64,000 nt of DNA from Sedimentibacter hydroxybenzoicus DSM 7310 (GTDB lineage Bacteria; Bacillota; Clostridia; Tissierellales; Sedimentibacteraceae): the NCBI RefSeq assembly GCF_013403245.1, contig NZ_JACBNQ010000002.1, positions 372,001 to 436,000 of the forward strand, written 5' to 3'. Shown here piece by piece: positions 18,751 to 44,809 of the stretch; the first letter of the stretch is position 1; every line of letters begins with the position of its first letter. The notes under the pieces are model-generated. The model saw only the letters and a program-made list of their open reading frames with translations. It did not search any database and had not been told where the DNA came from. Position numbers and translations under genes: made by a program.

Positions 18751-20391
18751 GTGATAGAAAAGATAAAAATTGAGAATTTCAAATGTATAGAGGGAAGTTT
18801 TGAGTTGAGTTTAAAACAGGGAATAAATATTCTTGTTGGAAATAATGAAGCAGGAAAATCTACTATTTTAGAAGCTATTCATATGGCTTTAAGTGGTATT
18901 TTTAGAGGGAGAACAGTAAAAGGAAATTTGACACAATATCTATTTAATTATAATGTTGTCAATAAGTATTTAGATGAAGTTAATAAAGGAAGTGCACCAG
19001 AAGCACCATATATTCTTATTGAATTATATATGAATGGTAGCATTCCAATGTTGGAGGGTGACAAATTTACTGATAAAAGCAGAACTGCAAGAACAAGCGG
19101 AATTGCTTTAAAAATCGCATTAGATGAAAAATATAGTGAGGAATACGAGTCGTTAATAAAAGCTGGTGAACTGGCAAGTTTACCGATAGAATACTATGAT
19201 GTTGAGTGGTATGCCTTTTCTCGGAGAGATTTGACTTCTAGAAGTATTCCATTCAAATCATCATTTATTGATGTTGGATTCAGTAAGTTTCAAAATGGTT
19301 CGGATATATACATTTCAAGGATCATTCAAAATATATTGGAAACTGAAGAGAAAATAAAGGTAGCACAAGCCTACAGAAAAATAAAAGAAACTTTTTCTAA
19401 TGACACTGCAATATCGAATATTAACTCAAAGATAACGGGGATATCAAAGTTAAGCAGTAAAGAAATTGAATTAACTGTAGATTTAGGGGCACGCTCTACT
19501 TGGGATGGTAGTCTTATAACGCAACTTGATAATATTCCTTTTGATTTTATTGGAAAGGGAGAACAATCTGTGGTGAAAATTGATTTAGCCTTATCAAATA
19601 AAAAGTCCGAATCTTCTTCAGTTATTCTTATTGAAGAACCGGAATGTCATATAAGCCATTCTAGACTAAATCAATTGCTAAAAAGTATCAAATCAAATTA
19701 TGATGATAAGCAAATAATTATATCTACACATAGTAGTTTTGTTTCTAATAAATTAGGATTAGATAATTTGATACTTCTCAGTCAGCAAAAGACAATTCAC
19801 TTCAATGAATTAAAATCCAAAGAATTTTTTGAGAAAATATCTGGATATGATACCTTACGGCTTATACTTTGCAAAAAGGCAATATTAGTTGAGGGCGATT
19901 CTGATGAATTGATAGTTCAACGTGCATACATGGATGCTCATAACGGGAGACTTCCCATTGAAGACAATGTTGAAGTAATATCTGTAGGAACATCTTTCTT
20001 ACGATTTTTAGAAATTGCTGAACATTTAAATATTCCTGTAAGAGTCGTAACTGACAATGATGGAAGTATATCATCATTAGAAAAAAAATATAAAAACTAT
20101 ATAGGTGTAAATAAAAAAATAAATATAGACATATGTTATGACAACGTAGAACATACAGGAATACTGAAACTAGGAAAAGATGAAAAGCCATTCAACTATA
20201 ATACTTTAGAACCTCTATTGTTAAAAGAAAACAGCTTAGTGTTTTTTAATTCAATATTTGGTATGGAATATCCTGATGAAAATGATTTGCATAAGTATAT
20301 GAAAAACCATAAAACGGAGTGTGCGTTGAAGATTTTTTCGTCAAAGGAAAGTATTAAATATCCGGAATACATCAAGAAGGCAATACGATGA
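18751..20391 (+). CDS. gajA: OLD-family ATP-dependent nuclease, GajA of a Gabija-type system
   Basis: The 546-residue protein has an N-terminal ABC-type ATPase with Walker A GNNEAGKST (residues 30-38), a Walker B-like ILIEEPECH (about 293) and the histidine switch IISTHSS. A TOPRIM nuclease domain follows, with VEGDSDELI (about 378) and VTDNDG (about 432) as metal-binding sites. A class 2 OLD protein next to a UvrD-like helicase is the defining layout of Gabija, in which GajA cuts DNA when invading phage depletes nucleotides. The GTG start follows AGGAGAGGG. It overlaps the helicase gene by 4 bases. That partner is broken by a prophage, so the system is probably off in lysogens. Confidence 0.85.
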   Translation: MIEKIKIENFKCIEGSFELSLKQGINILVGNNEAGKSTILEAIHMALSGIFRGRTVKGNLTQYLFNYNVVNKYLDEVNKGSAPEAPYILIELYMNGSIPMLEGDKFTDKSRTARTSGIALKIALDEKYSEEYESLIKAGELASLPIEYYDVEWYAFSRRDLTSRSIPFKSSFIDVGFSKFQNGSDIYISRIIQNILETEEKIKVAQAYRKIKETFSNDTAISNINSKITGISKLSSKEIELTVDLGARSTWDGSLITQLDNIPFDFIGKGEQSVVKIDLALSNKKSESSSVILIEEPECHISHSRLNQLLKSIKSNYDDKQIIISTHSSFVSNKLGLDNLILLSQQKTIHFNELKSKEFFEKISGYDTLRLILCKKAILVEGDSDELIVQRAYMDAHNGRLPIEDNVEVISVGTSFLRFLEIAEHLNIPVRVVTDNDGSISSLEKKYKNYIGVNKKINIDICYDNVEHTGILKLGKDEKPFNYNTLEPLLLKENSLVFFNSIFGMEYPDENDLHKYMKNHKTECALKIFSSKESIKYPEYIKKAIR

Positions 20392-20553
20392 ATAATAAAT
20401 TATTAATTGCTTCTGCTGGTGCAGGAAAAACGACTTTGCTTGTGAAAAAAGCTCTTACTTGTTCAAATTCTGTTCTGATTACTACATTTACAGAAGAGAA
20501 TGAAAGAGAGATACGAAAAAAATTTGCAAAACTAAATAATGGTGTAATTCCAC

Positions 20554-20568
20554 ATAATGTTACCATAC
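20554..20568. repeat. Prophage attL core
   Basis: ATAATGTTACCATAC is identical to 40343-40357. It encodes the helicase residues N-V-T-I. The sequence diverges immediately on both sides of the two copies. Confidence 0.9.
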
Positions 20569-20583
20569 CTATATTAAAAACAA

Positions 20584-20613
20584 ACCCCTTGCAATTACTA
20601 TGTTACAAGGGGT
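20584..20613 (-). terminator. Terminator at the left prophage end
   Basis: ACCCCTTG and CAAGGGGT form an 8-bp stem with a 14-base loop. On the minus strand a TTTGTTTTT tract follows, which would stop phage transcription before it enters gajB. A T-rich run also follows on the plus strand. Confidence 0.7.
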
Positions 20614-20625
20614 ATTGTTGTTTTA

Positions 20626-20648
20626 AGACAACATTTTGACAACAATTC
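20626..20648. repeat. Left arm-type integrase site candidates
   Basis: Two near-identical units (AGACAACATTTT and TGACAACAATT) lie about 60-80 bases inside attL. The same TGACAACATTTT unit is tandem at 40219-40242 near attR. This symmetry suggests arm binding sites for the integrase or its cofactor. Confidence 0.55.
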
Positions 20649-20669
20649 ATATATGCTTTTTAATATCTT

Positions 20670-20780
20670 TTATTCTTCAGTTTGATTGTATCCGGCAATA
20701 AAAGCTTCTACCAAACAAATGAGTTCAATATCTTTTGAGTTCATTAATACGTCAAATATTTTTTTAACTCTTTCTTTCAT
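20670..20780 (-). CDS. Small prophage protein, 36 residues, unknown
   Basis: The gene is shorter than usual annotation cut-offs but its ATG overlaps the stop of the preceding gene as ATGA. The charged, helical product contains KERVKKIFDVLMNSKDIEL. It is the last gene of the left accessory operon. No family is recognised. Confidence 0.55.
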   Translation of the reverse strand: MKERVKKIFDVLMNSKDIELICLVEAFIAGYNQTEE

Positions 20781-21202
20781 GCTTGCACCTCTGAATCTAA
20801 TTTTTTAATTATATTCCAGAAAACAGATAGGATTGTTTTTAAGGCTCTTACATTACTTTCATCAAATCCATTTGATTCATCTAAAGCTGTTTCCGCAAGC
20901 AAGATGAATGCATTTTTTACAACTTCTACGTTATCTTTATTAGCCAAGCTTTCTGTAAGGTCTCTAATTTTATCTAAAGAATCAATATCATCAATCTGTG
21001 AAATCTTATCCATGATATTAAGCCTAACTATTTGATTGCTCATAAATTCCTGTTCTTGTCCTGTATAAACTTCTTCATATGCATCAATCGCCATTTCAGA
21101 ATTCACTTTTATAATCTGTTTTCTAATTTTTTTAAGACCTTCATTTGTAAAATCCTTGACTTCATATCGTTTTATATCATATCCTGCCTTTTCTGCAATC
21201 AT
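20777..21202 (-). CDS. Prophage accessory protein, 141 residues, unknown
   Basis: The protein is predicted to be mostly helical, without membrane segments or a recognised motif. It begins in a 4-base ATGA overlap with the 46-residue gene before it and ends in a 4-base overlap with the 36-residue gene after it. Translational coupling suggests that the small proteins act together. Position beside attL, beyond the late operon, points to lysogenic conversion or accessory functions. Confidence 0.6.
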   Translation of the reverse strand: MIAEKAGYDIKRYEVKDFTNEGLKKIRKQIIKVNSEMAIDAYEEVYTGQEQEFMSNQIVRLNIMDKISQIDDIDSLDKIRDLTESLANKDNVEVVKNAFILLAETALDESNGFDESNVRALKTILSVFWNIIKKLDSEVQA

Positions 21203-21339
21203 TTGTTTTCCTCCTTTGGTTGTAAATTCAGTATGTAAATCAATACTAATTTTAATTGCCTTGAATTTAATTTTTCTATCCTCTGTATAATCTCATTTTT
21301 TAAATCAGTTTCTACTGTAGTATTATTCTCAACTTGCAT
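21199..21339 (-). CDS. Small prophage protein, 46 residues, unknown
   Basis: The frame is open with an ATG at 21339 just inside the 3' end of the upstream gene, and its stop overlaps the next ATG (ATGA). The product is helical and charged (KNEIIQRIEKLNSRQLKLVL). It contains the AAAGGAGG ribosome site for the next gene in its last codons. Confidence 0.5.
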   Translation of the reverse strand: MQVENNTTVETDLKNEIIQRIEKLNSRQLKLVLIYILNLQPKEENK

Positions 21340-21628
21340 TTTTACTTTTCTCCTTCCTCATCTTACTTTTAAATAAATACGAGTTAGCAAAAGCATTTAT
21401 ACATTTTAATAATTTCATGTCATTTGTACCCAAAATAGAATGTATTATATAGTACCTCTCACGTTCCGATTCGCTCGTTGTTGCAAATTCTTCATTTGTT
21501 CCATATATACGTCTAAATAAATTTGCTATATTATATATAACCCGCAATGCAACTACATCCTTACAGCTATTTACTTCGTCAATAATAGCCTGTCTTAGTT
21601 CTTTTTTATACTTTGGTAACTGAATCAT
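21329..21628 (-). CDS. Prophage accessory protein, 99 residues, unknown
   Basis: The product is helical and basic, with no recognised domain. It starts with AGGAGA upstream of the ATG and is the first gene of the overlapping four-gene set that ends at 20670. It lies downstream of the small excisionase-like gene on the same strand. Confidence 0.6.
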   Translation of the reverse strand: MIQLPKYKKELRQAIIDEVNSCKDVVALRVIYNIANLFRRIYGTNEEFATTSESERERYYIIHSILGTNDMKLLKCINAFANSYLFKSKMRKEKSKNAS

Positions 21629-21747
21629 AATATTTTCTCCTATCTTTTTTCTTGATAATTTGTTTTAGATAGGTTATAGTATTTTTAATATAACCTATCT
21701 CTTTCGGTAGGTATGCAGCTTTTACTTTGGTCGGTGGAGCTGCATTT

Positions 21748-21924
21748 TTATTTTTCCTTTAGCCATTCAATTACGCTTTCTTTCTCGATCCTAACATTTT
21801 TCCCTGCTTTAAAAGATTTAAGACTCCCATCATTAATGGCTCTTCTTATTGTCGATTCGCTAACCTTTATAAATTCGCACAGTTCTTTAATTGTTAAAAT
21901 GTCAGGCATGTTTTCCAAGCCCAT
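21748..21924 (-). CDS. Excisionase-family helix-turn-helix protein
   Basis: The start at 21924 has GGGAGGTG seven bases upstream. The 58-residue protein is a single MerR/Xis-like winged helix: LTIKELCEFIKVSESTIRRAI followed by KAGKNVRIEKESVIEWL. Proteins of this type bind attachment-site arms and turn integrase toward excision. It is near attL while the integrase is near attR. It could instead regulate the four small genes downstream. Confidence 0.75.
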   Translation of the reverse strand: MGLENMPDILTIKELCEFIKVSESTIRRAINDGSLKSFKAGKNVRIEKESVIEWLKEK

Positions 21925-22330
21925 TTCATTCACCTCCCTTGTTTTTCTCTTGTATTCATATACTATCATATACATTCATTAGTTGTCAATATTTTTTTGC
22001 ATCATTTGTAAAAAATAACATAACATACAAAATTTTAATGATATAATTAAATAATTTGACTCCGCAAAATTGCCGAGCCAAAAATAAATACATATGTATC
22101 GCCTCATTAACAAGGGGAACATTTTAAATGTTACCCCTCAACTTTGAGGAATAAAATACTTTCTCTCGCATGTGTAAACGATAATAGATCTCACTAAATA
22201 TACTCATAGAGTTTTATATTAGAAAGTGGATTATATTCTCTAAAAACCATTTAATGAGCCGACAATATAAAACAAACTTGCTAACTCAAATCGTATATAA
22301 TAAAAACAATATATACTTTGGAGGATTACC
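21925..22330. other. Divergent intergenic region with hairpin
   Basis: The region separates the minus-strand excisionase-like gene from a small plus-strand gene, so it should hold two promoters. An imperfect hairpin (AGGGGAACATTT pairing with AAATGTTACCCCT, one bulged A) spans 22113-22138. No further gene is supported. Confidence 0.45.
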
Positions 22331-22501
22331 ATGCAAAAATACAAACAAAAAGAAAGAAATATAATAATCACGTATTCGGACAAGCCCGCCCCGGTCGATA
22401 TGCCTATACATTTTGTGAATTTTTTCAAGGACTTACGTCGGGTGGTAGAAGCGAGAGAAGAAAGAGAAAGGAGGGAGCAGGAAGCGCAGAAGCAACTATA
22501 G
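22331..22501 (+). CDS. Small prophage protein, 56 residues, unknown
   Basis: ATG at 22331 follows GGAGGATTACC, a strong ribosome site. The product has a conserved-looking centre (ITYSDKPAPVDMPIHFVNFF) and a highly charged Arg/Glu-rich helical tail. It is transcribed against its neighbours. I do not recognise the family. Confidence 0.55.
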   Translation: MQKYKQKERNIIITYSDKPAPVDMPIHFVNFFKDLRRVVEAREERERREQEAQKQL

Positions 22502-22524
22502 ATAAGTGCAAAATTGCACTTATC
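22501..22524 (+). other. Perfect hairpin after the 56-residue gene
   Basis: GATAAGTGCAA and TTGCACTTATC are exact complements two bases apart. No T tract follows, so it is either a weak terminator or a protein-binding palindrome. Confidence 0.5.
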
Positions 22525-22568
22525 GAAATAAGAGACAAATCAACAATACATCTCAAAAAATAAAAATC

Positions 22569-22591
22569 GGGAACGAGTTACACCCATTCCC
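22569..22591 (-). terminator. Terminator of the Abi-family gene
   Basis: On the minus strand GGGAATGGG pairs with CTCGTTCCC across a 5-base loop, followed by GATTTTTATTTTTT. It ends the abortive-infection gene's transcript. Confidence 0.75.
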
Positions 22592-22612
22592 TACAAAAAA
22601 GTTTTACTTTTT

Positions 22613-23551
22613 CTAATTGATATTATCATTATATGCGATAGAGTATAAATTGTCAATGACTTCTTTGCAGAAATTATAAGCGGTCTTTATTGCCTCATTA
22701 TCTTTGAAATATTCGCTATTTCTCATCATCCTTACATTAAATAGCTCTCTTAGCTCTGTATATCTCGCAAGCTTTATCTTCTCACTATTTACAACATTGT
22801 CAAAAACATACAATGTCGTAATGAAGTCATTTATAATTCTGTTACTCAATTTTGAATCTATCATAGTATTTCCAAATTTGGTGTTATTTTTGGCAAACTT
22901 TCTTATTTTCTCATAAGGTTTAATCCCTGATTTATCCTTATATAATTGATTAATTAAACAATTGCTATGAGCTGCAGCATTCCTTAAATTTTTAACTCTA
23001 AACAGTAAAGGGCATATTCTAAAACTGCCATACGTGTCATCGTATAATTTATATAAAAATACTAAGTTTCCAAAGGAGATAAGTTCTATTAACACCCATA
23101 TTGGAATATCTTTCTTCGAATAAGCATCTATTAAATCCCCACAGTATGAATTTGATTTATGTTTTATTATATCTGGTAATATATTATCATATTTATCTAA
23201 AAATATTTTAGTTATATTGTATCCATCTTCATCAGGATTATCTTCAATATTTCTCACAAGATTTACTTTTAATGAATGTTCAATATCTAAGCACATTTTT
23301 ATAACTAAATATCTTAGATACATATCTATAGTTGAAAGTTCTTGTAAATACGCAAATTCTAACGAAATATATTTATTGTTTCCGTCAGGATAAATCCTTT
23401 TTTCATAATTCTTTCTGTAAGCTGATAATTTAAAATAGTAATTATGCTCAGCTAAAAAATGTTTAGCATTTTCTTCATCAACTATATTGAATTTTATACC
23501 ATTCTTTTTCATTATAGTAATTAATTCATCTGGAGTTTTTAGCTCTTTCAA
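22613..23551 (-). CDS. Abi_2 (AbiD/AbiF)-family abortive infection protein
   Basis: The 312-residue protein has the family's N-terminal pattern (TPDELITIMKKNGI, FLAEHNYYFKLSAYRK). It also has a HEPN-type motif RNAAAHSN (R-x4-H) near residue 194, the signature of metal-independent RNases. A TTG start follows AGGAG. It has its own terminator, and the late operon ends just upstream, so it is a separately expressed cargo gene. Its likely role is to protect the lysogen from other phages by RNA cleavage and growth arrest. This role is inferred from the family. Confidence 0.85.
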   Translation of the reverse strand: MKELKTPDELITIMKKNGIKFNIVDEENAKHFLAEHNYYFKLSAYRKNYEKRIYPDGNNKYISLEFAYLQELSTIDMYLRYLVIKMCLDIEHSLKVNLVRNIEDNPDEDGYNITKIFLDKYDNILPDIIKHKSNSYCGDLIDAYSKKDIPIWVLIELISFGNLVFLYKLYDDTYGSFRICPLLFRVKNLRNAAAHSNCLINQLYKDKSGIKPYEKIRKFAKNNTKFGNTMIDSKLSNRIINDFITTLYVFDNVVNSEKIKLARYTELRELFNVRMMRNSEYFKDNEAIKTAYNFCKEVIDNLYSIAYNDNIN

Positions 23552-23680
23552 TTTATCAGCTCCTGCATGTAATATTTATACTATATTACAACAAAATAAG
23601 ACTAAAAGCAACATCACTTTAGCGAAATCAAAGAATACAAATTGGTTAATCCGGAAATTAATTATAAAGATATAGAACTA

Positions 23681-23722
23681 AAATAGGTGTATAACAAAAC
23701 GCTATACACCTATTTTTATTTT
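23681..23722. terminator. Bidirectional terminator at the end of the late operon
   Basis: AATAGGTGTATA and TATACACCTATT form a perfect 12-bp stem with a 9-base loop. T-rich runs lie on both sides. It separates the tail genes from the Abi cargo gene. Confidence 0.85.
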
Positions 23723-24081
23723 TCCATACACTCAAAAGTTACATTTCTCCAAACACCATTATATAAAACTCTTGTGAAAAAATCTTGAATGCTTTCAGGA
23801 GTTCTGCAATTTATAGTGTTGACGCCTAAAATTGGATCTTCATAAGTCAAAGTATATTCCTTACCCTGTACCAAGCTAAGCATAAACGATATTTCTTCCT
23901 GTGTCATCATGTCATACCTTATGTTCACTGTTCTAATTTCTTTTCTTATCCATTGAATGTGTGTTATTCCATCGTCTGTCCTAAATTCATTTTTTATGCT
24001 CCCAATTTCGACATGTGTACCACTATCAGGGTCATAAATAGGTTGACCGTTTATTTCCCATATACTTGATAATTCCCTCAT
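23716..24081 (-). CDS. Phage tail protein (DUF6711-like), last late gene
   Basis: The 121-residue protein follows the tape-measure gene and has a beta-rich composition (WEINGQPIYDPDSGTHVEIGSI). Such proteins are found at the tail tip of small siphophages. In complete phages this position is followed by distal-tail, fibre and lysis genes, but here a strong terminator follows directly. The family assignment is from general resemblance only. Confidence 0.6.
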   Translation of the reverse strand: MRELSSIWEINGQPIYDPDSGTHVEIGSIKNEFRTDDGITHIQWIRKEIRTVNIRYDMMTQEEISFMLSLVQGKEYTLTYEDPILGVNTINCRTPESIQDFFTRVLYNGVWRNVTFECMEK

Positions 24082-24100
24082 ATTATAATATCTCCTATAT

Positions 24101-25627
24101 CTAAATCGGACTTTCTCCGTATATTATAGTTCTATCTCTTACACCATCAATTACTGTATCTGTTAAATCATCTTTATCAATAACAGCCGTCATATTTTTA
24201 TCTATTAATGTTCTTTCTAAACTCTGTATCGCTTCAATAATTGAGATAAATCCCTTCTCGTTAGCCCCGGGATAAGCTCTATTTTCATCTGCTGTCAATA
24301 CTCTTTCGCCTTGGTGTAGCTGTGCGATGTACCCGTCAAATGGTACATAACTTAAGCCGTTCGCGTGGCTGCCGTCATAATCCCTGCCGCTCTTCCACGT
24401 TGTTTTTTTGTCTTTAGCTTCTGTATTATTCCAACTCTTTAGCCATTCAATGGCTGCTTGGATTGCACTTACAATACCCCAGAATATATCCGTCAATGTT
24501 TTAACTGCGGTTCCTATTGCTCCAAATGTTTTTTCAACAACTCCTTGAGCACTCGGAAAGTTATCGCCGATATATTTAACTATTTTACTTAATATCGATA
24601 GAATTGCATCTAAAACAGGTGATAAAACCTTGTCCCATATGAATTTGATTGCATCAAATACTGTACTAAATATAATTGATATTGTGGGCCAGTTTTCTTG
24701 TACAAAACCAAAAACCCCCGTAAGCATATCAAATAGTATAGATAAAACAGGGCTTAATACATTTTCCCATACCCACTTAATTCCTTCAAATATTTCCGTT
24801 ACGGTAGTTTCAATTACAGGCATATTGCTTTCAATCCAACTTGTTACATTTTGAACTACACCTAAAAATATCTCAAGCACCGGCTCCCCAATAGTAGCAT
24901 AAAACCTTTCAAATGTTGCTCTTAGGTTACCCATAACATTTTCATATGCACCCGCTTCCCTTGAAGCTTGTCCCATTGCTCCATTCATTTCGTAGGTTTT
25001 TTCAACTGTATCAAGTAATAACCATTGCCGCTCACTTTCGGTTAAATCCGCCCAACTCTTGCCATACATTTCATTGGCTTTAACATCCATTTGTTTTGCG
25101 TTAGTAAATACGCCTATTGCATCACCGGCAGCAAAATTTCCTTTCATGAAGCTTGCTAATGATGCAGTTGAATCCTCTAAAGACCTATCATAAAAGGCGG
25201 CGCTATCTGCTGCCAATCTCGTTGCTTTATCAACTGCATCAAGTGCCTGCTCACCTTCCATACCAGCACCTTTGATTTGTCCACCAAATTTATTCCAGCT
25301 ATCCGTCAGTCTGTCAGCATTGATTCCTAAATCCTCTACTTGTGCATTAATCCTTTCTACAGCATTAATATTTTCGTCACCTTTAAATACTTGGTCAAAC
25401 TGTGCTTCCATTGCTTGTAAATTTGCACTTGCTTCTACTGCCTTTTTGCCAAAATTAACAATAGCGTTGACACTAAAAGCAGCTACTACACCCTTAGCTA
25501 TATTTGACATTGTTTTATTAATTTTGCTTTCCTGTTGCTGGACAGTATCTCCGAATGATGTAAGTTCCTTTTTGGCATCATTAGCACCGGTATCTATCGT
25601 TATCTTTAAAGTACCTAAATCTATCAT
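24101..25627 (-). CDS. Short tail tape-measure protein
   Basis: The 508-residue protein follows the tail chaperone genes, as tape measures do. It has an N-terminal coiled region (DTGANDAKKELTSFGDTVQQ), a TMP-type core (NINAVERINAQVEDLGINADRL) and repeated hydrophobic Trp-rich segments such as WENVLSPVLSILFDMLTGV. The repeats would span the tail lumen. At 508 residues it predicts a short tail of roughly 70-80 nm. Its ATG follows immediately after the TAA of the frameshifted chaperone. Confidence 0.85.
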   Translation of the reverse strand: MIDLGTLKITIDTGANDAKKELTSFGDTVQQQESKINKTMSNIAKGVVAAFSVNAIVNFGKKAVEASANLQAMEAQFDQVFKGDENINAVERINAQVEDLGINADRLTDSWNKFGGQIKGAGMEGEQALDAVDKATRLAADSAAFYDRSLEDSTASLASFMKGNFAAGDAIGVFTNAKQMDVKANEMYGKSWADLTESERQWLLLDTVEKTYEMNGAMGQASREAGAYENVMGNLRATFERFYATIGEPVLEIFLGVVQNVTSWIESNMPVIETTVTEIFEGIKWVWENVLSPVLSILFDMLTGVFGFVQENWPTISIIFSTVFDAIKFIWDKVLSPVLDAILSILSKIVKYIGDNFPSAQGVVEKTFGAIGTAVKTLTDIFWGIVSAIQAAIEWLKSWNNTEAKDKKTTWKSGRDYDGSHANGLSYVPFDGYIAQLHQGERVLTADENRAYPGANEKGFISIIEAIQSLERTLIDKNMTAVIDKDDLTDTVIDGVRDRTIIYGESPI

Positions 25628-25918
25628 TTAGTCACTTCCTTTTAAAAAATGTTCTCTCAGCTTCTCTCTATCTGGTTCTGTCTGCTCCAATATCCATGCA
25701 TTATTTAGATACTCTTGCCCTGTTTCTGTCTGACTAAGTTTGTAAATATAGGCATCATGCAAATACAGTTTATATACTGCAACTTCTAAATTATCAATTT
25801 CATTAAAGTTGAGCCCCGTATATTCACTTATGAGTTTGTATTCAAATGTATAAACATCGTATTTATGCCCCTGTTTTTTATTATCTTGAGGATAATAGGG
25901 GCAGTTTAGTTTTTTAAA
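25628..25918 (-). CDS. Frameshift extension of the tail chaperone (gpT part)
   Basis: This frame has no good start of its own but stays open from a TAG just before the slippery site to the TAA next to the tape-measure start. It encodes about 95 residues ending in REKLREHFLKGSD. A -1 slip on TTTAAAA in the upstream gene joins it to give a gpG-gpT-type fusion of about 200 residues. This is how most long-tailed phages make the chaperone that holds the tape measure during tail assembly. Confidence 0.8.
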   Translation of the reverse strand, partial: FKKLNCPYYPQDNKKQGHKYDVYTFEYKLISEYTGLNFNEIDNLEVAVYKLYLHDAYIYKLSQTETGQEYLNNAWILEQTEPDREKLREHFLKGSD

Positions 25919-26226
25919 CTATTTAATGAATTGGTTGTCCACTTTTGGAATTCTATAACCAAATGCATTGCAACATTAACACTAATCATACCCTCAAGCT
26001 CTTCTTTTGTAAGTGTTATATCGTTTATATTTCTGTTAAATGCCCTTACTAAAAAGTTATATATTATATTAAATGCGGTATCTTCTTCACCGTTAGCCTT
26101 TGCCAATTTTGCTGTTTCTAATAATTTGTCGTATAGTTCTTTTGTAGGCTGCTTTACATTTAAAATTCTTCCATCTGGTAAAGTTAAATCAAATGTAATT
26201 GCGCTAATTGTTCTTAAATCTATCAT
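25906..26226 (-). CDS. Tail assembly chaperone (gpG part)
   Basis: The 106-residue protein (IDLRTISAITFDLTLPDG...) lies between the major tail protein and the tape measure, the usual chaperone position. It ends three codons after the heptamer T TTA AAA, so unslipped ribosomes make gpG and slipped ones make the longer product. AAGGAGA precedes the ATG. Confidence 0.85.
   Translation of the reverse strand: MIDLRTISAITFDLTLPDGRILNVKQPTKELYDKLLETAKLAKANGEEDTAFNIIYNFLVRAFNRNINDITLTKEELEGMISVNVAMHLVIEFQKWTTNSLNSLKN
25912..25918 (-). promoter_or_regulatory. -1 ribosomal frameshift slippery heptamer
   Basis: The minus strand reads AGT TTA AAA AAC TAA in the gpG frame. T TTA AAA is a canonical X XXY YYZ site, and slipping by -1 enters the open gpT frame directly. 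Confidence 0.8.
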
Positions 26227-26254
26227 TTGTTTATTCTCCTTCTTAGACGAGTAA

Positions 26255-26806: not shown

Positions 26807-26807
26807 A

Positions 26808-27179: not shown

Positions 27180-27181
27180 AG

Positions 27182-27697: not shown

Positions 27698-27700
27698 AAA

Positions 27701-28727: not shown

Positions 28728-28773
28728 TTCAAAACCTCCCATTCAATACGTTTAAGGGGCATTTCTGCCCCAA

Positions 28774-29562: not shown

Positions 29563-29585
29563 TTATTTTTACCTTTCCTTTTCTA

Positions 29586-30221: not shown

Positions 30222-30317
30222 TTTTATCTCCTTTCACGCACCCATTGATGAGCGCCCGAATTATTTTTAAATTTAATAGCACGGTTCTTTATTGTCTACC
30301 CCACTTGAAAGACATAT

Positions 30318-32403: not shown

Positions 32404-32413
32404 TTCATCACCC

Positions 32414-33661: not shown

Positions 33662-34097
33662 AAGCTTCAGCCCCTATATTTATTTCAATATCATTGTTTA
33701 TTGTTCCACTATGCTCTAACTGCTGCTTGTCTCGCCATTCTGAAGGCTTTCTATTCTTTAACCAAAATATCTGAGCTGTTACATCAGGAGCCACTTCTTT
33801 TATGGTTTGAGTGGTTTTAACGTTTCCGTCTAAATCTTTTTCTGTTTTCGTCTCTAAATACGAATACCCTACTGCTCTTTTGTAAAGTGCATTTTCAACT
33901 TGTATATCAACAACTTCTTTACCTCTTTTTAAAGCATTACAAATATTACTGTATTTGTTTTTCCAATCATAAAGAGTTTTTACATTTATACCTATATTAC
34001 TTGCTATCTGTTCATCGGTTAACCCATCTCTCGCCCATGCTTCAAGCCTTAGTAAGTTATCCGGCTCAAGCCATTCTTTGTACTTGCCTTTTGCCAT
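33651..34097 (-). CDS. Terminase small subunit-like DNA-binding protein
   Basis: The 148-residue protein has an N-terminal helix-turn-helix (ARDGLTDEQIASNIGINVKTLYDW) and the conserved tail DVTAQIFWLKNRKPSEWRDK. It recognises the packaging site and recruits the large subunit. Its stop overlaps the large-subunit start, and AGGTGG precedes the ATG. Confidence 0.88.
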   Translation of the reverse strand: MAKGKYKEWLEPDNLLRLEAWARDGLTDEQIASNIGINVKTLYDWKNKYSNICNALKRGKEVVDIQVENALYKRAVGYSYLETKTEKDLDGNVKTTQTIKEVAPDVTAQIFWLKNRKPSEWRDKQQLEHSGTINNDIEINIGAEAFDD

Positions 34098-34294
34098 AAA
34101 CTCACCACCTATAAATAATTTTTCTTATGTCCAAATATTTAGTTTTAAGGACACCCCCAATTTTTCATCAAAGATGTCCTCTTAACTAAATATAGGAGAA
34201 TTACATTATGGCAGATGTAATTAAAGCTTAATATTACCGTACCACACTTCATATAATTACTCCATAGCGCTAAATTTGCGCGTTTTTTGCGTGA

Positions 34295-34693
34295 TTATTG
34301 CATTATTTCCTTAATTACATCATCAGAAAATAAGCATATTTTTAATTTTTCAATTAATCGATTATTATTTCTTGAAATAGTGGAAGGCTCTACATAAAAA
34401 TGTTCAGCCATATTCTCAATTGTTTTTCCTTCAAAATACCTCAGGCGTATAATATCAAAGTACATATCATCTTTTAACGTCTCAACGGCAGCATCAATGG
34501 CTCCAATAAGATTTTTGGTTTTACATATACTTTTTTCTATATCCCTTATCTCTTTTTCGCCTTTATCTGAGCTAATCTCTTTAATAGCTTTAATTTGAAA
34601 TTCTTTGATTTCAATTGATTTCACAAAACTATTATAATTGTAAAGTAATAATTCTGTTTTCTTGTATGATTCTGGTTTTTTACTTTCTGGCAT
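34295..34693 (-). CDS. ArpU/RinA-like late transcriptional regulator
   Basis: The 132-residue protein has a coiled N-terminal part and a sigma-70 region 4-like helix-turn-helix (IIRLRYFEGKTIENMAEHFYVEPSTISR). Such proteins switch on the late genes of Firmicute phages. It lies just before the terminase genes, and the 200-base gap after it would hold the late promoter, including a hairpin with AGGACA/TGTCCT arms near 34150. Confidence 0.8.
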   Translation of the reverse strand: MPESKKPESYKKTELLLYNYNSFVKSIEIKEFQIKAIKEISSDKGEKEIRDIEKSICKTKNLIGAIDAAVETLKDDMYFDIIRLRYFEGKTIENMAEHFYVEPSTISRNNNRLIEKLKICLFSDDVIKEIMQ

Positions 34694-34698
34694 TTTAT

Positions 34699-36570
34699 TT
34701 ACTCCCCCTTTGCCATAATAAATGGATATCCAGACCCTTTAATTCCGTATTTCCGCTTAAGGTCTTTATTTGCTCTTATACGAACCAAATTATAATCATT
34801 CAATATTTGTTGCATGGATCTTTTAATTTGGATTTCAACTTGCTTTTTATTGCAACCTTTGAACCGTTTAATATAAATATCAGAAATTTTGTTTTCGAGA
34901 ATATATCCCTTCTTCTCAATATCACCGCAAATTATTTTAACTAAGTTATCTGTTGCTGCATTAGACTTGCGGCTTGCCCCTTTCTTGTTTTCAGCTTTAA
35001 ATTGAGGGTAAACCCTGTTAGCTTCTTCCTCTCCAAATGTTCGCAATACACATTCCCGGCTCAACCCCATCATAGTAATGTGGCTATCTTTCAATATCCT
35101 TGCTTTGCCCTCGCCTGCTTCAAGTGTACATACTCCTAAACTTGGGATTGTATAAAATCCCGTAAGCTTAGTGAATCCATATTTTTCAGATATAGCTCTG
35201 GCACGGTTTAATTCTTCTTCTGGTATACTTTCAAGGTCTGCCTTTTCCAACATACCAAGTAGCGCAAACAAAACTAAAATCTTGGAAAATGCTGTTCTAT
35301 CTTTTACATTGCAAACTTTCATTAAATCCTTATAGCTGGAATAAAACATTAAGCTGCCATCCTTCTCCATATCATTGCTGATAAATTGTGACATATGAGT
35401 TAAAATCGCCTGATATTCGGTTTTTCTGTTACGGATAGCAGATGATAATGAGGGGAATTGAGTTTTAAATTCATCTGTATCAAGGTAGTTCACCATATCA
35501 AGAATTAACAGTTTCTGTTCCTTAACCCATGCGCTGTCCTCGTACTCAATACCGTAAACTTTTTTTATAAATTCAACTGCTTGTCTTCTGCTGCAACCGC
35601 TTAATTTTTCAGTAATGCCGATTATGGTATAAGCTCGGTCACAACCAAAACATTTATATACAGGCATTTTACTATCTGTTAAATATATATGGGCAGATGG
35701 GTTTGTATCGTTATGTTCTGGAATAATACAATTGAAAAATGATCCGTCGCTTGGTACATTTAGATACAAACTTAAATTTAAGCTGTTTATAACAGTGTAC
35801 AAGTCGTTGGTACTACTTGCTTTGAGTGCTGTTGGAGTTTTCTCAATACTTATATAAAGATTATATATATCTTCCTTATTAGTATTGGAAAAACTCATGT
35901 GTTGTTTGCGTTGAGATATCAGTGCTTGTAGGGTTTCAATATCAAGATTTTTAATAGCTTGTACATTATCATTTATTATTTTTTTATTATGTAATGGCTG
36001 CGTTCTTATATTTTCAGAACGTGATAGCATGGATTTTTCCGTTTTATTTTCAAAAATTGAGTTAACGCTTAAAATATTATCGTAATATTTATATACAATG
36101 TCTTTCCCCCCAAAATATAGCCGTGTTAAATTGCAACAACTTTTATCGCATCTATTAAATAATTGCATCAATGTACTTTGTAGCTTTACGGCCGTATTAT
36201 AATCTCTCACAACATCACATAGTACAAATACAAATCTGAATTTGTTCTGCGTCTCTGAATGGCTGAATGTTGTATATACGAATGTAGGAAATAAATTTAG
36301 TTCGTAGCATCTGCTTATTTCATCTTCTATGGTTGAACCATCAAAATCTAATACGAATATTTGTTGTTCCTTCCAATGTTCCTGATTAATTTTACCTGTA
36401 ATAATTGCAGGTCTAAAAGTTCTACCTTGTATTATTTTTTCCGCTAATTCTTCAATTGATATATTCACTATGGGCATGTTATACACAATTTCTTTTTCTG
36501 TTTGATCCGAAGTAGGCTTCACCTTGTATTTAGTTTTATGCAACATGCACTTAATTATTTTATTTTGCAT
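34699..36570 (-). CDS. Phage primase with AEP-like and CHC2 zinc-finger domains
   Basis: The 623-residue protein starts with a primase-polymerase-like domain (FVLDFDGS for metal binding, FRFVFVLCD, RLYFGGKD). A CHC2-type zinc finger follows near residue 280 (FNCIIPEHNDTNPSAHI ... YKCFGC), then a helical region and a winged-helix-like C-terminus. No replicative helicase or polymerase gene is present, so it would start phage replication with host enzymes. AEP-like and CHC2 parts usually belong to different primase types, so the combination is noteworthy. Confidence 0.8.
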   Translation of the reverse strand: MQNKIIKCMLHKTKYKVKPTSDQTEKEIVYNMPIVNISIEELAEKIIQGRTFRPAIITGKINQEHWKEQQIFVLDFDGSTIEDEISRCYELNLFPTFVYTTFSHSETQNKFRFVFVLCDVVRDYNTAVKLQSTLMQLFNRCDKSCCNLTRLYFGGKDIVYKYYDNILSVNSIFENKTEKSMLSRSENIRTQPLHNKKIINDNVQAIKNLDIETLQALISQRKQHMSFSNTNKEDIYNLYISIEKTPTALKASSTNDLYTVINSLNLSLYLNVPSDGSFFNCIIPEHNDTNPSAHIYLTDSKMPVYKCFGCDRAYTIIGITEKLSGCSRRQAVEFIKKVYGIEYEDSAWVKEQKLLILDMVNYLDTDEFKTQFPSLSSAIRNRKTEYQAILTHMSQFISNDMEKDGSLMFYSSYKDLMKVCNVKDRTAFSKILVLFALLGMLEKADLESIPEEELNRARAISEKYGFTKLTGFYTIPSLGVCTLEAGEGKARILKDSHITMMGLSRECVLRTFGEEEANRVYPQFKAENKKGASRKSNAATDNLVKIICGDIEKKGYILENKISDIYIKRFKGCNKKQVEIQIKRSMQQILNDYNLVRIRANKDLKRKYGIKGSGYPFIMAKGE

Positions 36571-36602
36571 TTCTTCCTCCTCCCCTGCACATCTACCATA
36601 TT

Positions 36603-36645
36603 TTTAAATAAAAAAAGCCAATGGCTAAGTTAATAACCACTGGCT
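36603..36645 (-). terminator. Terminator between early genes and primase
   Basis: On the minus strand AGCCAGTGG pairs with CCATTGGCT (one mismatch) across a 12-base loop, followed by seven Ts. It would limit readthrough from the early regulators into the primase gene and could be an antitermination control point. Confidence 0.7.
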
Positions 36646-36732
36646 CAAGGCTCAAAGTTTTCTAAATAATATATTTAAATTTTGGGTAAAGGCTCGTCCA
36701 AGAACTAACCTTAAAAAATCTGCTTAATCATG

Positions 36733-37122
36733 TTATGGAATATAGCAATCAAGCTCTGTAAACAGAACTTTAAATGCCTTTAATATTGGACTTCGAGGTT
36801 CGATTTCAAGAATTGATTTGCCATCAATACATAAGTTAATATTTTCATTTGGTGGAAAAACAATAAGTGAAATATTGTCCGTCAGGTTTACACCAATTGC
36901 TTCAACTTTACCACTATCAGCATTATGTATTTGGATATCTGCACAATCAAGTATAAAACTTGTTACTGCAACAAATGTACTTTCAGCCATTTCTTCTTCA
37001 ATCGGTATTATTATATCCTCTTCAATACATTCGGCTAAAACATCATTTACTCTTTCCAACCATTTAACCGGGGCGCTCTCCAAAGTTTTGTTAATTTCCC
37101 TAAGTAATTCACTTTTTCCCAT
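36733..37122 (-). CDS. Prophage protein of unknown function, 129 residues
   Basis: The product is acidic and helical in its N-terminal half (LLREINKTLESAPVKWLERVNDVLAEC) and beta-rich later. AGGAGAG precedes the ATG. It lies in the early region between a zinc-ribbon gene and the primase. I do not recognise a family. Confidence 0.7.
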   Translation of the reverse strand: MGKSELLREINKTLESAPVKWLERVNDVLAECIEEDIIIPIEEEMAESTFVAVTSFILDCADIQIHNADSGKVEAIGVNLTDNISLIVFPPNENINLCIDGKSILEIEPRSPILKAFKVLFTELDCYIP

Positions 37123-37160
37123 CTATTCTAACTCTCCTATAATTTTATTTTTTTACTCCA

Positions 37161-37310
37161 CTAAAACGATATTAATTTCTGTGTACCGCAGTATTTACAC
37201 CACATCAATACTTCTTTTGCGTGGCTTTCACTGTGCAACGTCTTACACAACAACGTCCCACAGTCAGGACATCTTATTTCATTGTTAATTGGTTTAATAT
37301 GTCGTTTCAT
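37161..37310 (-). CDS. Small zinc-ribbon protein (Com-like)
   Basis: The 49-residue product has two C-x2-C pairs, CPDCG and CKYCG, spaced 27 residues apart as in Mu Com-type zinc fingers. A GGGAGG site lies 11 bases upstream. Com-type proteins bind phage mRNA or DNA. Confidence 0.6.
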   Translation of the reverse strand: MKRHIKPINNEIRCPDCGTLLCKTLHSESHAKEVLMWCKYCGTQKLISF

Positions 37311-37345
37311 CAATGTATTATCCTCCCTCTTGCCATCTGCTCAAA

Positions 37346-37531
37346 TTATAAAGACTTAAAATATTTATCGGTTCTTGATAAATCAACGCGATAAGCTCTT
37401 TTGGTGACCCGCTGACTGGGGAATCCCTTCGCGTGGATAATTCGGTATGCTGTCGCACTTGATAGGTCGTAGTGTTCCATAAATTTAGGAACTGTAACCC
37501 ATTCCTCTTCTCTTGAATTGCTCTTAGCCAT
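37346..37531 (-). CDS. Helix-turn-helix DNA-binding protein
   Basis: ATG at 37531 is preceded by AAAGGAGAG. The 61-residue protein is a single winged helix (VTVPKFMEHYDLSSATAYRIIHAKGFPSQ ... AYRVDL) of excisionase/MerR type. It sits in the early operon and may direct excision or gene regulation. Confidence 0.75.
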   Translation of the reverse strand: MAKSNSREEEWVTVPKFMEHYDLSSATAYRIIHAKGFPSQRVTKRAYRVDLSRTDKYFKSL

Positions 37532-37607
37532 TTTATCTCTCTCCTTTCTCATTGTTGCTTTATTTTATCAAAACGGGTTAACATACATAATTATTTTCCT
37601 TTCTTTT

Positions 37608-38249
37608 TTAACAAGGAGGATTAGCAAAAACTATATCATTTAATTTATACTTTTCGTAAATCTTATCACTGACTGAAATACCTAAATTAAATATTGAATT
37701 CATTGCCATCAAGTTTACCGTCTCATCAAGTATGCTTTGTCTTTTAACCAACATATCCGGCTGCATTTCAGCTTTTTTAATCATCCGGGTATATCCATAT
37801 AAATTAGATACTACCTTATTCGCTATTGTATTAGCCTTAATATAATCAACCTTTGAGGCTTTAACTAAAGAAGAATCTAATTTTTTCATCATTGCTCTTT
37901 GTTGTTCCTTATCAAGCATCTTAAATACTTCAAATCCCTCTAATCCTGCTGATTGTCTAAGTTTTTTAATTACATCAAATATCCAATCTTGAAAAGCTTC
38001 TGCTTCTTTCTTCTTGCTTTTAAATGACAACCTATATATTGCTTTTTCATTTATTATATTTGCTTCTTGCTCTCTACCTAATCGGTCGATGACCTTACTT
38101 GTAGTAACCCCATCTTTTATTTTTTCTAATGCTCTTGTTGTTTGTTTTAGATTTAAAGCATTCGTAACATCTGCCGCCACTGCCCACCAAGCGCCGTTAT
38201 GTTCAACAAATCTTATGTCATGACCATTCCACTTTTCGATTTTTATCAT
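37608..38249 (-). CDS. Phage antirepressor, BRO-N domain
   Basis: The 213-residue protein begins with a BRO N-terminal DNA-binding domain (VEHNGAWWAVAADVTNALNLKQTTRAL) and the conserved IYRLSFKSKKKEAEAFQDWIF end. The C-terminal half is helical. Such proteins lift repression and promote induction. An exact 19-bp operator copy lies just upstream at 38269, so it is likely controlled by the phage repressor. Confidence 0.88.
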   Translation of the reverse strand: MIKIEKWNGHDIRFVEHNGAWWAVAADVTNALNLKQTTRALEKIKDGVTTSKVIDRLGREQEANIINEKAIYRLSFKSKKKEAEAFQDWIFDVIKKLRQSAGLEGFEVFKMLDKEQQRAMMKKLDSSLVKASKVDYIKANTIANKVVSNLYGYTRMIKKAEMQPDMLVKRQSILDETVNLMAMNSIFNLGISVSDKIYEKYKLNDIVFANPPC

Positions 38250-38268
38250 TGATTAACTCCTTTTATTT

Positions 38269-38287
38269 TGTAGATTTTTATTCTACA
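38269..38287. promoter_or_regulatory. Phage operator, copy upstream of antirepressor
   Basis: TGTAGATTTTTATTCTACA is an inverted repeat (TGTAGA/TCTACA, 7-base centre) and is identical to 38516-38534. It overlaps the end of the small Cro-like gene. Confidence 0.75.
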
Positions 38288-38496
38288 TGAGTTGCAAAAA
38301 AAATTTTCTCTTTTAGGTTTGAATCTTTAATATTTAACATATTACACATAATTGATATTTCACTAGCCTTAAATTCATTGATATTATTTATTTTTTTCTG
38401 TAGAGCATAGTATGTAATACCTAATTTTTCAGCAATCACTTTATATTTTAACCCAGATATCTTTATAATCCTTTTTAACTCAACAGTGTTTGTCAC
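38278..38496 (-). CDS. Cro-like helix-turn-helix regulator
   Basis: The 72-residue product has a XRE-type fold (IIKISGLKYKVIAEKLGITYYALQKKINN). It is divergent from the repressor at 38648, as Cro is from CI, and begins the leftward early operon. GTG is the likely start, with AAGGGG upstream. Confidence 0.78.
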   Translation of the reverse strand: MTNTVELKRIIKISGLKYKVIAEKLGITYYALQKKINNINEFKASEISIMCNMLNIKDSNLKEKIFFATHVE

Positions 38497-38515
38497 TTTA
38501 TCAACCCCTTTCTTT

Positions 38516-38570
38516 TGTAGATTTTTATTCTACAAGCCAATAATAACATCTTGTAGATTTATTGTCAACA
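38516..38570. promoter_or_regulatory. Phage operator region between cro-like and repressor genes
   Basis: One exact copy of the 19-bp operator occupies 38516-38534. A degenerate copy with one good half (TGTAGA) covers 38552-38570. The spacing of 36 bases puts them on similar helix faces within the leftward promoter area. Confidence 0.7.
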
Positions 38571-38610
38571 ATTATTTATAAAATCATGTATTTTAGTTGA
38601 ATTATATTAT

Positions 38611-38627
38611 ACAATATGATATATTGT
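38611..38627. promoter_or_regulatory. Palindrome at the repressor promoter
   Basis: ACAATAT-GAT-ATATTGT is a perfect 7-bp inverted repeat 20 bases before the repressor start. It may be an operator distinct from the TGTAGA type or overlap the repressor's own -10 region. Confidence 0.4.
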
Positions 38628-38647
38628 CTTCATAGGAGGACATATAT

Positions 38648-39151
38648 ATGAGCGAATTATCTAAAAGAATAAAGCAAAGAAGAGAAGAGTTAAATCTTTC
38701 TCAAGATGAATTAGCAAGGAAGTTAGGTTATAAGTCACGTTCTTCAATTAACAAAATAGAATCTGGTGACAATGATGTACCCCAATCCAAAATTGAGGCT
38801 TTTGCGAAAGCCTTAGAGATGTCACCTTCTGAATTAATGGGTTGGAGTGAGGAGCGTATGCAATATTTGAGAGAAAATAGAAATACTGTAATTATACAAA
38901 GACTACTTGGTTTTATGGGTTGTAAAATTGAAATGAAATGGTCTGAATTAGAAGGTAATTTTATTGAGCCTGCTGGTTATACAGTTGAGTATAACAAGGC
39001 TTCATTTGATATAACAACAGAAGAATTCACAGAACTTATTAATAGTATTAAATCATATATCAGTTTTAAGATTCATGAACTTTCAGAAACAAAACTATCA
39101 AAACAGGAAAGTGATAACTTAAACAATGACAAGACTAATGAGGAGGTTTGA
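38648..39151 (+). CDS. CI-like phage repressor
   Basis: The 167-residue protein has an N-terminal XRE helix-turn-helix (KQRREELNLSQDELARKLGYKSRSSINKIESGD). Its C-terminal domain lacks an LexA-type Ser-Lys protease, so induction probably depends on the antirepressor rather than RecA self-cleavage. AGGAGG precedes the ATG. It is co-transcribed with the integrase, whose ribosome site lies in its last codons. Confidence 0.88.
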   Translation: MSELSKRIKQRREELNLSQDELARKLGYKSRSSINKIESGDNDVPQSKIEAFAKALEMSPSELMGWSEERMQYLRENRNTVIIQRLLGFMGCKIEMKWSELEGNFIEPAGYTVEYNKASFDITTEEFTELINSIKSYISFKIHELSETKLSKQESDNLNNDKTNEEV

Positions 39152-39153
39152 AA

Positions 39154-40221
39154 ATGGCAAAGCTAAAGAAAAGGTCTGACGGACGTTACTGTAAGAATGT
39201 AACCGTCGGAAGGAATGAAGATGGAAGTTTAAGGCGTAAGATGATTTATGCTAATACTCAAAAAGAATTGGATTTAAAGGTTGCTGAATTAACCTTACAG
39301 GTTGACAAAGGTATTATTATTGACGATAAGGGCATGACAGTAGGTGAATGGGCTAAAAAGTGGTATGAGTCTTATGTTGAGAAAACCACCAAGGCACATA
39401 ATACTAAAATCAAATACGAAAATATTGTATTCAATCATATCATTCCATGCATAGGATATATTAAAATAAAGGATTTAAAACAATACCAGGTCCAAAATAT
39501 GTTTAATGAAAAGGAGCAGGATGGTTTTACTAAAACAATAGAATTAATGAAACTTACTCTTAACCAAATTCTTGAGCAAGCTGTTGAAAATGATTATATT
39601 TATAAAAATGTTGCTAAAGGTGTAAGGATAAAAAGTTACAAGGCACCGGAAAAACAACCTCTGACGGACGAGCAAATAAATAAAATTAAAAATACTAATC
39701 ATTCAATGCATAATGTGATTCTATTCTTAATCTATACCGGCATGAGGATCGGAGAAGCTGTTGCCTTAACATGGGCAGATGTTGATTTCAAGAATAAAAT
39801 TATACACGTTACTAAAACCGCTGATTTTTACAATGATGAAGCAAATACAAAAACACCTAAAACAACCGCAAGTATTAGAGATATTCCAATAGTTGAACCT
39901 CTATATAAAATACTTGAATGTATGTTCAAAGAAACTGAAAGCATCTATGTTTTTTCTTATAATGGCAATATGTTTAAGCATGGCACACTTGATAAACGCA
40001 AACTATATTATTGCAAGAAATTAGGATTTGATTTTACATTTCATCAATGCCGACATACTTGTGCAACAATGCTATATAATGCAGGTGTAGGTATAAAAGA
40101 AGCCCAAAACTGGTTGGGGCATGCAAACATAAAAACGACTATGGACGTATATACGCATCTTGATAAGAAGAACAAAGAAAGTGCGTTGTCAAAAATGAAT
40201 GAAATGCTTTTAGCCAAATGA
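39154..40221 (+). CDS. int: Tyrosine integrase of the prophage
   Basis: The 355-residue enzyme has an N-terminal arm-binding domain (KRSDGRYCKNVTVGRNEDGS), a SAM-like core-binding domain and a catalytic domain. Catalytic residues appear in GMRIGEA (Arg, about 198), HQCRHT (His/Arg, about 299), WLGH (His) and DVYTHL (Tyr, about 332). ATG at 39154 follows AGGAGG. It is adjacent to attR and should catalyse the recombination that opens and closes gajB. Confidence 0.95.
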   Translation: MAKLKKRSDGRYCKNVTVGRNEDGSLRRKMIYANTQKELDLKVAELTLQVDKGIIIDDKGMTVGEWAKKWYESYVEKTTKAHNTKIKYENIVFNHIIPCIGYIKIKDLKQYQVQNMFNEKEQDGFTKTIELMKLTLNQILEQAVENDYIYKNVAKGVRIKSYKAPEKQPLTDEQINKIKNTNHSMHNVILFLIYTGMRIGEAVALTWADVDFKNKIIHVTKTADFYNDEANTKTPKTTASIRDIPIVEPLYKILECMFKETESIYVFSYNGNMFKHGTLDKRKLYYCKKLGFDFTFHQCRHTCATMLYNAGVGIKEAQNWLGHANIKTTMDVYTHLDKKNKESALSKMNEMLLAK

Positions 40222-40242
40222 CAACATTTTTGACAACATTTT
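40219..40242. repeat. Right arm-type integrase site candidates
   Basis: TGACAACATTTT occurs twice in perfect tandem, overlapping the integrase stop codon. Matching units lie near attL at 20626-20648. Confidence 0.6.
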
Positions 40243-40342
40243 AGTGATAAATGTTGAATATTATGAGAATATAGATAATATGATATTTATTGATTTATCA
40301 ACGTTTTATTTATTTTTCAACATCAGGAGTCACGATATATAT

Positions 40343-40357
40343 ATAATGTTACCATAC
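40343..40357. repeat. Prophage attR core
   Basis: ATAATGTTACCATAC is identical to the attL core at 20554-20568. It reads N-V-T-I in the helicase frame and continues into QTWFSFL. Confidence 0.9.
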
Positions 40358-41286
40358 AAACATGGTTTTCATTTTTAATTGAGCATGGTGCTAAACCATA
40401 TCAAGGAAAACTTACAAATAAAAGAATAAACGGCCTACTGCTTGTAAATGAAAAATCGGGATTAAAATACAAGAGCAAATTTCCGGTGTATTTTTCAGAG
40501 GATGAAATTGATAAACACTATTTTACAAGTGATTACCAAATATATTCTGATAAACTTTCTAAATTTGCTGTTAAGTGTAATGAGAAAAGTAAAGGGTATG
40601 TAGTCGAACGAATTTCAGCGTTGTTTCAGAATATTTTTATTGACGAAGTACAAGATATGGCAGGATATGATTTGGAATTTATAAGACTATTAATGGAAAC
40701 TGATTCTGTAATCAGAATGGCTGGTGATCCTAGACAAGTAACCTATCATACACATTTTTCTAGTAAATATAAAAAATATTCTGAGGGAAAAATTCAAGAA
40801 TTTATGTTAAAGGAATGTCTCAACACGGAGTGTATTATTGATACATACAGCCTTAAAGGCAGCTGGCGTAATAATCTAGCTATTTGCGAATTTGCAAATA
40901 AATTGTTTCCAGAATATCCACAATGTGAATCATTACAGGAGGAAACTACTGAACATGATGGTGTATTCTTCGTAGAAGAAAAGGATATAGAGAACTACCT
41001 AAAAAAATACTCACCATTGCAATTAAGATATGATAGGAAAACTAAAAAAGTTAATCCTAACTACGACGTAAAAAATTTTGGTGAATCAAAAGGGGCAACA
41101 TATAATAGGGTTTTAATCTATCCAACAAAGAAGATGTTAGACTGGATAATAAAAGGTGAAAAAATAGATAGTTTTGAAATAAAATGTAAACTTTATGTAG
41201 CTGTAACCAGAGCAAAGTTTAGTGTTGCAATAGTGTGTAAAAACAACACTAAATCAGATGTACTACCGATATATAAATGTGATTAA
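40357..41286 (+). pseudogene. gajB: GajB-like UvrD helicase, C-terminal fragment after prophage
   Basis: The frame continues the helicase from the core with QTWFSFLIEHGAKPYQG. It contains motif II (IFIDEVQD), motif III (MAGDPRQVT), motif IV (LKGSWRNN), motif V (GESKGATYNRVLI) and motif VI (LYVAVTRAK). Joined to the first 60 codons it would make 369 residues, shorter than the 494-residue GajB first described, so it is a compact version. An internal ATG at 40486 could start a partial product lacking motif I, which would be inactive. Excision of the prophage would restore the gene. Confidence 0.9.
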
Positions 41287-44735: not shown

Positions 44736-44737
44736 CC

Positions 44738-44753: not shown

Positions 44754-44809
44754 GCTTGAAAGCCTGATAAATAGTGGGGTTGAAAGACTATAAATAGAAA
44801 TATATTTTG

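Follow-up and report, generated by a model that had tools for sequence, protein, structure and literature searches.

A prophage inside the helicase gene of a Gabija-like locus

The window analysed here is a 64,000-nucleotide stretch of the Sedimentibacter hydroxybenzoicus DSM 7310 genome, in which the second gene of a Gabija-like antiphage pair, gajAB, is divided by a prophage of 19,789 bp (core to core, one core counted). An intact gajA is followed by a helicase gene, gajB, whose two fragments flank the element (Table 1). Two exact copies of ATAATGTTACCATAC stand at the junctions, with identity ending abruptly at both flanks; no further exact copy exists in the 3.81-Mb assembly, and 0.01 would be expected by chance in the window. 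Joining 20388-20568 to 40358-41286 gave 1110 bp in frame, corresponding to 369 codons and a stop, which overlaps gajA by 4 bases and carries the core at codons 56-60. The break lies between motif Ia (ITTFTEENE) and the QTWFSFL segment: Walker A is found on the left piece and is absent from the right piece, which holds Walker B and the remaining motifs, while GajA is whole. Precise excision would rejoin gajB in frame. The initial annotation had placed a prophage in a Gabija helicase gene, at this very position between the two motifs, and had stated that removal of the prophage with one core restores a single gene; all of this was borne out, including a full-length GajB match of the restored frame. 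The assembly holds the integrated form only, with neither an attB nor an attP junction.

Table 1. Coordinates of the features discussed, as positions in the window.
Feature	Position	Strand	Basis or remark
Large serine recombinase belonging to the outer element at the 3′ end of rumA/rlmD	17192..18445	+	Pfam Resolvase/Recombinase
gajA, class 2 OLD-type nuclease, 546 amino acids, intact	18751..20391	+	PADLOC GajA; Pfam AAA_15 and OLD-like TOPRIM
gajB 5′ fragment	20388..20568	+	Codons 1-60, Walker A and motif Ia; joined translation, GajB model, homologue alignment
attL core ATAATGTTACCATAC	20554..20568	+	Exact repeat
Prophage between cores	20569..40342	.	Gene content
Repeat pair GACAACA-N4-GACAACA, attL side (putative integrase arm site)	20627..20645	+	Same pair in G621
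Candidate excisionase/helix-turn-helix protein, 75 amino acids	21748..21975	-	phrog_66 (excisionase and transcriptional regulator) 1.2e-10; best match phrog_10045, helix-turn-helix
Abi_2/AbiD-family abortive infection gene	22613..23551	-	Pfam Abi_2 5.9e-23; PADLOC AbiD 4.9e-26; phrog_2158
Late genes: terminase, portal, MuF, scaffold, capsid, connectors, tail tube, tape measure, one phrog_1194 open reading frame	23716..34097	-	
Primase-like replication protein, 623 amino acids	34699..36570	-	phrog_25531 (unknown function) 8e-83; weak DNA primase match
Antirepressor	37608..38249	-	phrog_9976 1.1e-55
CI-like repressor	38648..39151	+	phrog_2967 and phrog_8
Tyrosine integrase; R200, H299, R302, H325 and Y335 intact	39148..40221	+	Pfam Phage_integrase; alignment of relatives
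Repeat pair GACAACA-N5-GACAACA, attR side (putative integrase arm site)	40220..40239	+	
attR core ATAATGTTACCATAC	40343..40357	+	Exact repeat
gajB 3′ fragment	40358..41286	+	Codons 61-369, Walker B and motifs III-VI
ORC/CDC6-like ATPase, between gajB and sduA	41658..43352	+	Pfam ORC-CDC6-like 31.5 bits, cut-off 27
Shedu nuclease sduA	43586..44662	+	PADLOC SduA PDLC00403 467 bits; Pfam SduA_C

The GajA reading frame matched the PADLOC GajA model over its whole length (PDLC00102, 664.5 bits), and the joined helicase matched the GajB model over residues 1-367 (PDLC00148, 446.6 bits, profile positions 1-366 of 369). A GajA profile also recovered the solved GajA chains 8sm3, 8jq9 and 8u7i at about 1e-9. 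E381 and D435-x-D437 of GajA, and Walker A and DEVQD of the joined helicase, were invariant among the homologues aligned. As in the Gabija systems of Bacillus cereus VD045 and Pseudomonas aeruginosa PA14, a class 2 OLD nuclease with ATPase and TOPRIM domains precedes a UvrD-like superfamily 1 helicase, and the Walker A, DEVQD box and TOPRIM motifs are present; here the helicase follows gajA directly only in the joined gene, and this strain does not have both genes intact, gajB being split. Unlike in those systems, the helicase is short (369 amino acids). A profile of 14 short-helicase homologues matched PcrA, UvrD and Rep among solved structures, and at E values of up to 1 it recovered no chain named GajB. 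The label "Gabija-type" of the initial annotation is thus supported at this locus by family models and by gene order.

With the joined GajB protein as query, we searched 249 genomes of the order, a phylum sample of 398 genomes, a class sample of 391, 21 loci from named genomes and 73 plasmid records. The alignment runs through the junction at 29 homologous loci, and since the homologous gene is uninterrupted there, the insertion is real; the intact relatives that the initial annotation had proposed to look for therefore exist. The closest is Acetobacterium bakii DSM 8239, whose GajB is 85% identical at the amino acid level (as is its GajA) and whose junction reads NGVIPPNVTIQTWFSFL against NGVIPHNVTIQTWFSFL in the joined gene. 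Good conservation of the core site is confined to the nearest relatives: it matches at 12 of 15 positions in A. bakii and Enterococcus malodoratus, and at 4-11 of 15 in the others. That the prophage was joined into gajB by an assembly error is scarcely credible: the assembly is a draft of 71 contigs, but both junctions lie within one long contig with an exact duplication of the core, the flanks rejoin to a conserved gene, and putative integrase arm sites stand at the spacing expected from a relative (see below).

The ratio of non-synonymous to synonymous substitution (dN/dS) against A. bakii was 0.07 for gajA and 0.11 for gajB, and the two gajB pieces hardly differed. Because these values are low and nearly equal in both pieces, neither gene appears to have decayed since the insertion.

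The prophage and its recombination apparatus

Next to attR, a CI-like repressor and the tyrosine integrase are read rightward. The leftward genes encode a Cro-like protein, an antirepressor, a primase-like protein, terminase, portal, MuF, scaffold, capsid, connector, tail-tube and tape-measure proteins, and beyond the tape measure lie a 121-amino-acid phrog_1194 reading frame, an Abi_2 gene, an excisionase-like helix-turn-helix protein and small reading frames. The integration, regulation, head and tail-tube genes of a temperate siphophage are accordingly present, and searches of the open reading frames against PHROG found no distal-tail or lysis genes in the prophage. The Abi_2/AbiD gene may replace the defence that the prophage breaks.

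The nearest whole relative, IMGVR_UViG_3300042934_000148 (hereafter G621), is 23,643 bp long with 127-bp terminal repeats, on account of which it is probably circular and complete as a 23.5-kb circle. Its head and tail-tube genes are collinear with those of the prophage at 41-84% identity, and its integrase is 50% identical. Unlike the prophage, it continues after the tape measure with a 278-amino-acid Dit-like protein, two small reading frames, a 670-amino-acid tail protein, a holin-like protein and an amidase, names that we assigned by reading the sequences. Dit-like and about 650-amino-acid tail proteins occur in the same order in the congeneric genome G018. Since the distal-tail, holin and amidase genes of the relative are absent, the prophage is probably defective, unable to form plaques or to lyse its host. 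Such a deficiency would mean that excision need not kill the cell; equally, the element may be in the course of being lost. In addition, a 171-amino-acid reading frame at 27182-27697 with helix-turn-helix/terminase-small-like matches separates two tail genes that are immediate neighbours in G621, and is a candidate for late-inserted cargo.

Capsid-forming satellites carry their own capsid genes, lack tail genes and depend on a helper. We judged it improbable that the element is such a satellite, relying on a helper phage for its tails and for lysis. Its small size, its own terminase, portal and capsid genes and the missing distal-tail and lysis genes would agree with this, but the element has genes for the tail tube and the tape measure, collinear with those of G621, so that deletion from a phage of that kind fits better.

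The repeat pairs of GACAACA, exactly two of which occur in this form in the window, are likely arm-type integrase sites: the same repeats stand at two matching places in G621, 197 bp apart, compared with 196 bp in the rejoined circle of the prophage. The cores of the two attP regions differ, and their attB sites should differ as well. Because gajA and gajB are undecayed, the catalytic residues of the integrase are present and the spacing of the attP arms is within 1 bp of that in the relative, the insertion looks recent and mechanically reversible. Among the genomes of the order, the only relative of the integrase was that of G002, a genome of the same genus (53% identity), where it lies beside a GGDEF gene; the class sample yielded none at the cut-off applied. 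For the left boundary of the G002 element, no repeat of at least 13 bp and no second arm pair were found within 40 kb. A 23-mer scan of viral contigs recovered no other phage with the same attP, and promoter-like sites near attR were no commoner than in shuffled sequences.

Choice of target and effect on defence

The combined data most probably reflect the insertional inactivation, reversible in principle, of a Gabija-like gajAB by a probably defective prophage, on an outer serine-recombinase element described below. In the proposed course of events, a small temperate phage encoding a tyrosine integrase would have recombined its attP with the 15-bp sequence at codons 56-60 of gajB, cutting the helicase between motif Ia and QTWFSFL and leaving GajA alone. 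The distal-tail and lysis genes would have been lost or never present, leaving a prophage that probably does not form plaques; with the integrase, the candidate Xis and complete att sites retained, precise excision could still rejoin gajB.

The initial annotation had supposed that the phage targets a defence gene. To a pattern search with the core, which is itself defined by the match, gajB was the only 15/15 site in the genome and all other sites had at least two mismatches; two-mismatch sites numbered 24, against 29 for a reversed control pattern. An exact 15-bp core was considered as proof of a primary attB and rejected: when genomes of the same size and composition were simulated and the best site was sought around a fixed 7-bp overlap, the best secondary site reached at least 15 bp in 20.7% of them. 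Across about 1,000 genomes (the order, phylum and class sets above), the 21 named loci and the 73 plasmid records, no further gajB divided by a prophage came to light; an apparent split copy in genome G005 was actually a run of Ns. The nearest integrases, at about 50% identity, have other cores or sites. The evidence for gajB as a dedicated target is therefore weak, and the supposition was not sustained.

It is correspondingly very unlikely that a phage lineage has evolved integration into gajB as a means of removing Gabija. The uniqueness of the 15/15 site would speak for it, but the absence of other split copies in the material surveyed, the different cores or sites of related integrases and the simulated matches speak against it. 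A further objection comes from the Gabija of PA14, which is reported to act on linear DNA that has been injected and not to restrict a prophage after its induction (PMC12407980). If that behaviour holds here, cutting gajB after integration would bring no benefit at entry, and restoring it at excision would do the phage no harm, for which reason we prefer opportunistic or phage-specific integration over an evolved counter-defence.

As regards the consequence for the host, both genes of the PA14 system are required for defence (PMC12407980). As the motifs of gajB are separated, the lysogen is probably Gabija-negative; the loss of activity and the ability to excise are both deduced from gene structure. 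Of the earlier statement that integration disables the defence, the disruption of gajB with GajA left alone holds, and the loss of protection is probable only. Two points weigh against insertional inactivation: the loss of defence by the short-helicase subfamily of Gabija is deduced rather than observed, and complementation between the two helicase fragments is conceivable in principle, although no known motif occurs in both. In addition, the small reading frames at 20777-21628 could hide late functions, against a defective prophage.

The initial annotation had further proposed that immunity is switchable, as in active lysogeny: excision without lysis in some cells or conditions would restore Gabija, and reintegration may follow, as at comK or hlb. 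We regard this as unlikely, although less so than the satellite or the counter-defence. It would draw on the precise restoration of the frame, the intact integrase and arms with a candidate Xis, the undecayed gajB pieces, and the lack of detected lysis genes, owing to which excision need not kill. However, this is a single instance in an assembly without an attB or attP junction, a recent insertion explains the low decay equally well, and nothing pointed to regulation linked to infection. The gene is split and one-core removal restores its frame, as active lysogeny would have it, but a recurrent dedicated site did not emerge from the survey. The missing distal-tail and lysis genes fit lysis-free excision or, equally, a dying remnant, and the proposed switch was thus not substantiated. 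The fuller form of this idea is likewise unlikely, namely that a lysis-deficient prophage serves as a DNA-level on/off switch for Gabija, whose usual residence in gajB spares the host a cost, whose non-lethal excision restores immunity, and whose own Abi_2 gene defends the cell meanwhile.

The surrounding element and known counterparts

The rumA/rlmD gene at 15743-17104 diverges from its relatives after about codon 449, and another rumA tail of native-like sequence, CACGTGGAGACCGTAATCCTGTTGCAAC, is present at about 44726-44770. TCCTGTTGCAAC is common to the rumA end (17079) and the displaced tail (44742). The region 17079-44770 thereby shows the adjoining recombinase, displaced tail and short repeat of a serine-recombinase element in rumA/rlmD, and comprises the serine recombinase, gajAB with the prophage, the ORC-like ATPase and Shedu sduA. 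Elements of this kind are known in rumA from streptococcal integrative and conjugative elements (ICEs; PMC4701971). Since the Gabija-Shedu cassette sits in this 3′-end element, the elements are nested, the prophage inside the cassette and the cassette inside the 3′ end of rumA/rlmD. The cassette carrying the prophage is probably itself mobile, measuring about 7.9 kb without it.

After the displaced rumA tail, a second serine recombinase (44906-46153), 60% identical to the first, leads into more defence genes and perhaps marks a second tandem element. These include an LmuB-like (Lamassu) SMC-type ATPase of 832 amino acids at 48173-50671, whose C terminus carries a GNAT acetyltransferase domain; the fusion is unusual and may represent a variant of Lamassu. 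A PHP domain fused to an SMC-like ATPase (50829-53711, 960 amino acids) gave weak to moderate PADLOC matches to Ppl and mad3, and a YhcG/DUF1016-type nuclease candidate was found at 56065-57114 (PADLOC PDC-S02, 459 bits).

Even without a switch, the locus exemplifies a mobile defence cassette that has probably been silenced by another mobile element, one bearing a defence gene of its own. This strain is probably Gabija-negative, yet it would be counted as positive in any survey that relied on gajA only or let a divided helicase pass. If excision does occur, the prophage gene switches known from comK and hlb would extend to antiviral immunity, and the locus would offer a natural system for asking when Gabija is worth carrying.

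A literature search of open-licence papers found no report of a prophage in a Gabija gene, and the locus was compared with known arrangements. In the Listeria comK prophage, the case of active lysogeny (Rabinovich et al. 2012, as cited in PMC4701971), a host gene is likewise split and precise excision restores the frame; according to that secondary account, excision without virions has been shown there and a serine recombinase is used, in contrast to the tyrosine integrase and the defence-gene target found here. Sa3int prophages likewise inactivate Staphylococcus aureus hlb reversibly in principle, but there the site is recurrent and dedicated and excision is demonstrated (PMC6597384, PMC9694928, PMC13123087), whereas the present case is a single instance, seen in its integrated form. 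Helper-embedded phage-inducible chromosomal islands (PMC10111431) share integrase-driven insertion within a gene that is expressed only after excision; their targets, unlike gajB, are late genes of helper prophages, with 14 recurrent sites and measured excision. A close precedent is provided by the Streptococcus ICEs in hsdM, described in 2016, in which a mobile element splits a restriction-modification gene and comK-like excision when the gene is useful was proposed (PMC4701971). Those elements differ from the present prophage in being conjugative, with serine-integrase triplets, repeats of 2-8 bp and a recurrent site, and the defence gene that they split is not Gabija.

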